A stretch of 64,000 nucleotides of DNA, taken from NCBI RefSeq assembly GCF_002775205.1, contig NC_036462.1, positions 29,267,084 to 29,331,083 of the forward strand, in the 5' to 3' direction. Under the pieces are notes generated by a model that saw only the letters and a list, made by a program, of their open reading frames with translations, ran no database searches and was not told where the DNA came from. Source of the stretch: Xiphophorus maculatus (Eukaryota; Chordata; Actinopteri; Cyprinodontiformes; Poeciliidae). Shown piece after piece: positions 32,901 to 44,871 of the stretch. The translations under genes were made by a program, and so were the position numbers. How positions within the stretch are numbered: position 1 is the stretch's first letter; every line of letters starts with the position of its first letter.

Positions 32901-35401
32901 AAACTTCCAACCATTAAAAGCTAAAACATCCACTGGGGAGCTGACACTGAGGCAATGCCTCACCTCGATGTGATGCACCAGCTCAATGGTAAGTTTCTCC
33001 GCCAGAATGGGAACGGTTGCAAGCTCTTTGTTGTACAAAGTGCTGCAAAAAGAATTCAAAAAATAAAACATTTTGCAACATAGAAAGGCTACCTGGTGGC
33101 TCAAGAAGATTTAACTTACTGGAAATAGGGGTGATTTTTAAAGAAGTCTTTCTCTCTCTCAATGGCTTCAGTCAGAGACACCTTCTCTGTGATCTCCTTC
33201 TGGCCTCTGCATTTGACGATCATGTAGCCTTTCTTCAGCTGGATGACTTCGTTGTTGACTATTTCCACCACCGTCTCTTCCGTGCCTTTGTCCACCAAGT
33301 CAGGTTTGGTCAAAATACCTGAGAGCAAGAGAATTCATACGTCTTTAACTGCTTAACTGAGAGCCAGGTGGTCATTTTACTCAATAATTTCTATTTACCC
33401 AGAGTCCTTTCTCCATCGGGATCAACCTGTTGAGCCATCTTTAAAGCCTCCGTAGTCGCGATGTCCACATTGGATGGAACCACCACCAAACTGATGGTTT
33501 CTTGTTTTTTAATAAATTTGTCGATGAGTCGCTTTATCTGAAATGTCCCGCATATATTGCCTAAGATTTACAATATAAAAAATGGCACATGGCAACACAC
33601 TAGGTCAAGGTGATCTAAACCGCAAGCCTACAAGCAGGAAAGCGGCTCTTCAGCAGCCACTTTCCTGCTTGCTTTCCCCGACCTGTTAGGTCGGGAAAAG
33701 ATCGTCACGAAACGTCTGAATTTGAAGCCTTCTCGGTTCCTCTAACATTCTTTGAGCAATTTACTAGGAAAGACGCAGATTCTGAGGAACACATTAACAA
33801 TGCTGACCTGATCACCGATGTTCTCTGGTTGTCCCTTTACAGCCACCCTGGCGATGCCAGGAAGGTCGATGAGAGTCAGGTCCGGCACGTCCGGGGAAGC
33901 AATTTCCAGAGTGATGAGGTCATCGCAAATCCCCACTCCGACTCCGGCCATTTCATCCTGTGCTGGAGAGAGGAAACAAAGGCGGTCGTAATGGTGAGTG
34001 ACGCATATTAAAAAAATAACTTTCATACTTTTACCAGAAAAATGCAATGTTGTACCTTCTCTGATTTTTTTCTCCACAATTGCAGGATCATTTAGCTCCT
34101 CCTCAAATTCTTGGTAACTGATCTTTCCATACCAGTCCTGGCCTTCTCTCCTTCTCTTCATCTTCAGCTCAAGAGGACATCTTGTGACTATGCCTGGATT
34201 AAAGATGAGTCAACGACAAGACAAGACAAGTTAAGGCAGGTCCAGTGAGGCTAGTGACTGTTTGGCTAACAGAGCTTGAAATATATTGCAGCTAAAACCA
34301 GAAGTTTACATACACCAAATAAAAAAAAACAAACACGTTTTTTTCAAAAAGCCAGATTGCCGTTTGCAAATTCTCACAGGTACAAATACCTTCATTTCTG
34401 GAGGCGTGTCCTCTGGTAGGAGGTTACTAAAGTGGAGCTGTTTGGCTAAAATGGCCACTGCTTCATATGGAGAATAAAGGGGGAAATAAATCACCCAGTA
34501 CGGGGAAGTCTGCATCATGTTGCAAGGTTGTTTTGCAGCAAGAGCAACTGGTGCACTTCATGAAATAGATGATGCCATCTATTTCATGAAATAAAACAGA
34601 TGGTATCCAACTATGCATCATTATGTTATGGGAAAATATTGAAGCAACATCTGAAAACATCAATCAGAAAGTTAAGGCTCATCTGTAAATGGTCTTCCAA
34701 ATGGACAATGAGCTTAAGTGTACAGCCAAAGTGGCTTAAAAGTGGCTTAAAAGTAAGTATGGCATCTATAGATTACCCGATGCCAGTGCCATAGCGCATT
34801 TATGGACAGATCTGAAAAGGTGTGTGAGTGAGACCAGACAGTCTGTACCTCATTCTTGTAGCATTAAGTAATTAGAAATCATTTTCTAGTTCTAGCAGAA
34901 GCTAGAACAGCAGAAGCTTGATCTGATTTAACTTCAGATGGTGAGAGAGAAAAACAGAGAACAAGGCAGAGATACAGACAAACTGGTATAAAACAGATTT
35001 TTGTTAATATAACTCCGTATATCTTGTTTTGTGAATTACTTTTTGGCCTTTAATACGATTTGCTTATTTTTCAAACATTTTAACAAAACTACGATCATGT
35101 TCAAAATTATGATATTTGCAACAACAACAAAATCTTTAACTATTTTTCATATTATTTCATTAAAACCATAGTTTTATTTCGGCTACAGACATTAAATGAC
35201 TTTTAATCACCCACCGCTTCCTCTTGGCAGAGCCACCCCGGACAGCGCCTCCAGCACCGAACTCTTCCCGGAGCTCTGGTCCCCTATCACGGCTATGGCA
35301 GGCAGCGCCAGGTCCTTCTCCACTCCCAGAGAGCGGAGGGAGTCGATCAGGTCGATGCAGGGACGCACCTTCTCCTCGTAGTGTTGATTCAATGTAGTCA
35401 T
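29968..35401 (-). CDS. mx: interferon-induced GTP-binding protein Mx (proximal copy, MxA here)
   Basis: A dynamin-like large GTPase of the antiviral interferon response. It forms cytosolic or nuclear ring oligomers. Twelve exons: 35401-35215, 34193-34056, 33962-33808, 33537-33399, 33318-33120, 33042-32964, 32890-32768, 32686-32545, 32464-32306, 31259-31183, 31064-30807 and 30192-29968. They total 1,881 bp, 626 residues, normal for fish Mx. Visible GTPase motifs are GDQSSGKS (40-47), DLPG within LPGIARVAV (141-144) and TKPD (210-213). The stalk contains [16 protein letters not shown]. Exon 11 (residues 467-552) carries the loop L4 region with an acidic run of six glutamates, and exon 12 encodes the GTPase effector segment ending AEF. 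All introns are GT-AG. An in-frame TAA lies upstream of the ATG. A and B are labels for this window only. Confidence 0.95.
34289..34870 (+). pseudogene. Tc1-like transposase remnant in Mx intron 1
   Basis: It starts with AGAAGTTTACATACACC, a Tc1-type terminal motif. It then carries decayed frames reading [18 protein letters not shown] and, after a frame change, a [19 protein letters not shown] block near 34795-34845. These match the C-terminal half of a fish Tc1-like transposase. It is inserted antisense to the Mx gene. The domains are broken by frameshifts and a large deletion. Confidence 0.65.
34557..34590. repeat. perfect 15-bp inverted repeat
   Basis: TTCATGAAATAGATG and CATCTATTTCATGAA are exact complements with a 4-base loop. 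They sit inside the Tc1-like remnant, where one arm looks like original element sequence and the other like an inverted copy. Confidence 0.65.

Positions 35402-44871: not shown

Follow-up and report, generated by a model that had tools for sequence, protein, structure and literature searches.

Why do two neighbouring Mx genes, which differ over most of their coding sequence, share one piece of their first coding exon base for base? The window, meaning the whole 64-kb stretch of DNA analysed here (C20:29267084-29331083), carries two intact tandem Mx genes on its minus strand, with 12 coding exons each (Table 1). An earlier reading of the sequence alone had proposed recent gene conversion over the part encoding the P-loop and had named a very recent partial duplication and an assembly collapse as alternatives. 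We compared the two genes with each other, with the rest of the genome and with a rodent outgroup.

Table 1. Features of the Mx gene pair (positions are those of the window)
Feature	Position	Strand	Details
Mx-A gene	29968..35401	-	626 aa; Dynamin_N, Dynamin_M, GED; exon model, Pfam, PDB
Mx-A exons 6-12, stalk/GED	29968..33042	-	strongly diverged, 89/196 same-amino-acid codons differ
Mx-A exons 2-5 with introns 2-4, rest of GTPase domain	33120..34193	-	intermediate silent divergence, 46/167
Identical block, Mx-A	35212..35380	-	169/169 identity to 44682-44850; two genome matches
Mx-A codons 1-7, outside block	35381..35401	-	7/21 bases differ from Mx-B
One-mismatch ISRE-like site	35515..35526	+	~114 bp upstream of Mx-A ATG
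Second one-mismatch ISRE-like site, Mx-A upstream	starts 35553	-	motif search
Mx-B gene	39002..44871	-	621 aa; Dynamin_N, Dynamin_M, GED; exon model, Pfam
Mx-B exons 6-12	39002..43157	-	partner of 29968..33042; exon model, silent counts
Mx-B exons 2-5	43250..44203	-	partner of 33120..34193; exon model, silent counts
Identical block, Mx-B	44682..44850	-	same content as Mx-A block; two genome matches
Mx-B codons 1-7, outside block	44851..44871	-	partner of 35381..35401
Exact ISRE-like site GAAATAGAAACT	44976..44987	-	116 bp upstream of Mx-B ATG

The exon models were made by matching open frames between Mx-A and Mx-B and picking AG/GT borders that preserve phase, and they cover coding exons only. 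Neither model has an internal stop. All 11 introns of both genes end in AG and have GT donors, apart from Mx-B intron 8, whose donor (42628-42635) reads GCAAGT and makes it a GC-AG intron per the exon model; its Mx-A partner has GT. An Mx GTPase unites a Dynamin_N GTPase domain, a Dynamin_M middle domain and a GED in one protein that lacks a PH domain. PF00350, PF01031 and PF02212 were matched in both proteins, and no PH domain model was matched in either one at E 0.001 (Pfam). When PDB was searched with the Mx-A protein, Mx1 scored 717 bits (E 1.5e-214), Mx2 642 bits and dynamin-1 221 bits, which indicates that Mx-A is nearer to Mx than to the dynamins. We take the PDB Mx1 chain to be human. 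Mx-A has 51 bp more than Mx-B in exon 11 (Mx-A 30807-31064, Mx-B 39962-40168), and its exon encodes a six-glutamate run that is missing from Mx-B; presumably, this difference falls in the L4 loop region.

A protein search of the 704-Mb genome gave 31 matches from 61 scored candidates, and 22 of the matches were inside the window's two Mx genes. A third Mx gene, considered as an alternative donor, was not found in the genome by this search, the other nine matches, which cover only part of the GTPase domain at 39-49% identity, being presumably dynamins or dynamin-like. A fish origin is plausible given the size of the genome and the compact genes.

The surroundings of the two genes were also examined. 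Within the 1 kb upstream of Mx-A, the ISRE-like sites all have one mismatch; Mx-B has one exact site, which is the sole exact GAAANNGAAACT match within the window, and these sites could provide a putative interferon response. A 17-bp repeat, GTAGGTTTTGTTTCGGT, is present in 2.9 copies at 44992-45040, directly upstream of the Mx-B site, and its GAAAC motifs (minus strand) may be part of the Mx-B promoter. Between the Mx genes, upstream of Mx-A, a tandem repeat with a 276-bp unit covers 36513-37261 (2.7 copies, 93% matches). Beside Mx-B, open frames at 47869-48630 on the minus strand matched the MARVEL domain, with a best E of 1.4e-7 and 32.0 bits against a curated cut-off of 32.8; they may belong to a putative gene of the synaptophysin/synaptoporin type.

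A base-by-base comparison confirmed the 169 bp of identity in exon 1, including three intron bases at the donor. The block takes in codons 8-62 of the first coding exon, the G that begins split codon 63 and bases +1 to +3 of intron 1, and it encodes the BSE helix and the P-loop GDQSSGKS. Its edges are maximal, as the adjoining bases differ on both sides (C/T at 35211/44681 and G/C at 35381/44851). The divergence around it was also as the sequence-only reading had described: codons 1-7 at the 5' coding end of exon 1 differ at 7 of 21 bases, and exon 2, for which about 20 differences in 138 positions and several amino-acid changes had been claimed, has 19 differences and 10 changes in 46 amino acids. 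Local alignment around the block extended over 203 bp (Mx-A side 35200-35402). No alignment above chance was found between the 400 bp upstream of the two ATGs (z 1.0 against shuffles), nor did intron 1 align above shuffled sequence (z 0.8). The homology of exon 1 is confined to an island of about 200 bp, 169 bp of it identical, between non-homologous flanks. The second-longest identical run over the 1827 aligned coding positions was 28 nt; this alignment counts the block as a run of 170 because split codon 63 is taken across the splice. A DNA search of the whole genome with the block gave two matches, both 100%, at Mx-A and Mx-B, in a search that ignores very common words and thus does not prove absence elsewhere.

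Such a short perfect block could arise during assembly or polishing if the consensus at one locus had been overwritten with reads from the other copy. At this length, mis-mapping by short-read polishing is conceivable. However, the differences at the bases adjoining the block were kept on both sides, and reads long enough to be mis-mapped would have carried those differences with them. The collapse considered in the earlier reading is at odds with two copies that have flanks of their own at either end and lie within a single N-free 64-kb stretch, itself part of a 704-Mb assembly of 101 contigs. An artefact is highly improbable.

Silent sites are informative on how the block was made. Among codons that encode the same amino acid in Mx-A and Mx-B, none of the 55 in the block differ, whereas exons 2-12 have 135 differing codons out of 363 (Fisher 1.1e-10) and exons 2-5 have 46 out of 167 (Fisher 4.7e-7). 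At 4-fold sites the counts are 0/33 and 66/156 (P 1.4e-7). In codons 1-7, which belong to the same exon as the block, all three same-amino-acid codons differ. The longest run of silent-identical codons was 56 among 421, a length reached in 0 of 100,000 shuffles, where the longest run was 45. At the rate of exons 2-5, 16.2 silent differences would be expected in the block, and the probability of zero is 1.6e-9. The silent divergence of the block is below 0.068 at 95%, which is less than about one-seventh of that of exons 2-5. A bounded block of silent identity amid diverged paralogs is what defines an interlocus conversion tract, and the block has this form.

Another possible explanation is that exceptional purifying selection on exon 1 at the DNA level, covering its silent sites as well, has held the two copies together with no exchange, through a splicing or regulatory code or an overlapping frame. 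The block does coincide with a universally conserved protein segment, since 53 of its 55 residues are shared with the PDB Mx1 chain (two differences, read by eye from the alignment) and 53 of 55 with rodent MxB. Amino-acid identity in the block is uninformative for conversion because it is near-universal among Mx proteins. The block is also GC-rich, with a GC3 of 44/55. An open frame found in an alternative reading frame of the block was set aside, as such frames arise by chance in GC-rich sequence. Against selection, it would require a silent rate at least 7-fold below that of exons 2-5 (95%), and codon bias alone does not suffice: with independent codon choice from the block's own usage, the chance of zero silent differences is about 10^-13.

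An outgroup was needed to separate slow change from exchange, and the Mastomys natalensis MxB coding sequence, of which the first 508 codons as printed in PMC9506377 were aligned, was used. Over this portion, silent differences between the window and the rodent, counted in same-amino-acid codons, were as common in the block (29/53) as in exons 2-5 (75/127) or exons 2-11 (135/226). Compared with exons 2-5 and exons 2-11, respectively, the block gave P values of 0.62 and 0.54 for Mx-A and 0.87 and 0.54 for Mx-B. The prediction that exon 1 is equally conserved among Mx genes, silent sites included, thus fails with 29 of 53 silent differences from the one outgroup. Since the silent sites of the block do change between lineages, their identity within one genome points to exchange and not to slowness. 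Silent sites between the window and the printed rodent sequence are near saturation, at which mild constraint would be missed; a slowdown of at least 7-fold, we infer, should still appear as clearly fewer differences. Constraint as an explanation of the block appears to be excluded by this rodent comparison, and we regard selection as largely refuted, given one outgroup, and extremely unlikely.

Other sources of an outgroup were tried. Silent differences from the window were read by eye at 4 of 7 unmutated codons of a human MxA mutagenesis primer and at 2 of 6 and 2 of 6 in bovine MX2 primers; these primers may have designed changes, and the counts are leads only. A grass carp primer that resembles exon 1 was dropped, as its paper locates the primer in the 5' UTR. 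The printed Mastomys MxA sequence is without the GTPase half and was left aside for this reason. In IMG/VR, 70 stretches matched the search pattern and none encoded a relative, and GTDB genomes gave just four distant bacterial matches, which were set aside.

The silent counts (0/55 vs 135/363) and the control with the printed rodent sequence support the earlier claim of recent conversion over the P-loop part. We assign a probability of about 0.9 to recent interlocus (ectopic) gene conversion between the tandem Mx genes as the origin of the block. "Recent" is favored by the bound on silent divergence, and this bound limits the age only loosely. Ectopic gene conversion leaves a block that ends at the limits of homology or at mismatches, with both genes intact. 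The two blocks are direct repeats about 9.5 kb apart. One Mx gene would have overwritten part of its neighbour, and either may have been the donor. The tract would have a length of 169 bp to about 203 bp, within the exon-1 island, and could reflect a single strand-transfer event or the latest among several. Its ends would have been fixed where homology stops, at intron 1 and at the diverged codons 1-7. The exchange was probably harmless because the BSE helix and P-loop segment would be interchangeable among Mx proteins.

The direction of conversion is unreadable within the tract because the tract is identical in both genes. In exons 2-5, the silent differences matched the printed rodent sequence about equally (13 like Mx-A, 16 like Mx-B), so that the pair is not polarised. 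Some observations count against conversion. Ectopic conversion would have had only a short island, about 200 bp, to work with, and the 5' edge of the block coincides with the border of the universally conserved protein segment (YEEKVRPC...), as a constraint model would likewise predict. The evidence base is one gene pair in one genome with one rodent outgroup.

The stop at the splice junction raises the question of whether the donor was a reverse-transcribed Mx mRNA. In such cDNA-templated conversion, a tract end at most three bases from the donor site would be accounted for, and those bases are splice consensus anyway. However, the tract stops within exon 1 at its other side and has no extension into exon 2, and a DNA template would give an end at the donor site as well, since no homology is detectable in intron 1. 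We consider a cDNA donor to be very unlikely. A very recent partial duplication, in which exon 1 was copied into a gene without it or shuffled between genes, would also be expected to give a short perfect block. Yet each gene has diverged codons 1-7 and a donor context of its own around the block, which is correctly placed and in frame and phase, and the flanking intron should have come along, in conflict with the z of 0.8 for intron 1. With its own exon-1 ends and 12 exons in both genes, the pair does not fit a partial duplication, which is the least probable of the alternatives.

Conversion between the Mx genes might not have been a single episode. Silent divergence in exons 2-5 (46/167) is below that in exons 6-12 (89/196; P 4.9e-4). 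When change points were fitted to the 421 same-amino-acid codons, with exon positions withheld, one break fell between codons 6 and 8 and another at 63/64. A fourth segment, with a break at 274/275, falls essentially on the exon 5/6 border, and the support for it is marginal (BIC was 508.4 with three segments, 507.7 with four and 512.0 with five, a gain of only 0.7 for the fourth segment). The similarity z values of introns 1-11 (0.8, 4.0, 1.6, 3.2, 1.9, 2.8, -0.5, 0.8, -0.8, 3.3 and -1.4) are mixed evidence for the exon 5/6 break, as the highest are those of introns 2, 4 and 10 (4.0, 3.2 and 3.3). Silent differences from the printed rodent sequence do not show a step at exon 5/6 (75/127 in exons 2-5 and 60/99 in exons 6-11). 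The lower divergence of exons 2-5 suggests, at low weight, older exchanges over the GTPase half, with which conversion may have recurred over time. Replacement of the 3' half in one Mx gene would give the same pattern.

Gene conversion between Mx genes is known from mammals. According to the accessible text of PMC4687636 (2015), which rests on GARD and phylogenies, MxA/MxB conversion has been recurrent and, outside rodents, mostly limited to the BSE-GTPase region. That text highlights human coding exon 2, which contains BSE alpha1B and alpha1G with the P-loop, and leaves the cause of the clustering undecided among a recombination hotspot, tolerance and selection for escape from viral antagonists. 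In the alignment with the PDB Mx1 chain 3zys_B, the window block corresponds to residues 45-99, and it appears to be the homologue of the converted mammalian exon (BSE alpha1B and alpha1G/P-loop). PMC4687636, in the part available, gives 84-147 "in human MxA" for this exon; when aligned to the Mx1 chain, MxB numbering fits better.

The window pair is like mammalian MxA/MxB as described in that portion of PMC4687636 in that the paralogs are neighbours, the exchange would involve the BSE alpha1B and alpha1G/P-loop exon, and a wider BSE-GTPase segment also seems homogenised relative to the remaining gene. Unlike the mammalian case, it is apparently teleost, concerns one pair in one genome without a multi-species tree, and has a tract whose limits are almost those of the exon. 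No earlier report of gene conversion in fish Mx was found in searches of one open-access library, which omits most subscription papers and whose hits were mostly judged by title and abstract opening. The accessible portions of PMC10300353, PMC11789081, PMC10247546, PMC9356732 and PMC6579814 have nothing on it. In what is available of PMC11789081, independent Mx duplications are described in several fish lineages, and "gene conversion" is mentioned for plant DRP4 genes and in a reference.

As far as we searched, the window adds a new case outside mammals, apparently from a teleost, to an already known phenomenon. More generally, concerted evolution of tandem pairs by interlocus conversion produces sharp blocks of silent identity within diverged paralogs. 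The window pair has such a block, and differs in the shortness of its tract (about 170-200 bp) and in that neither the adjoining intron nor the upstream DNA has detectable homology left.

An independent, apparently non-mammalian case at the same exon and bounded by that exon argues that the exon itself matters. It is possible, though we hold this only tentatively, that the BSE helix/P-loop exon is conversion-prone across bony vertebrates, in fish and mammals independently and repeatedly, either because swapping it leaves antiviral specificity unchanged or because a recombination hotspot lies in it. Mx phylogenies and selection tests that include the converted exon may mislead. The window pair provides a second lineage for testing why the BSE-GTPase exon of Mx converts.
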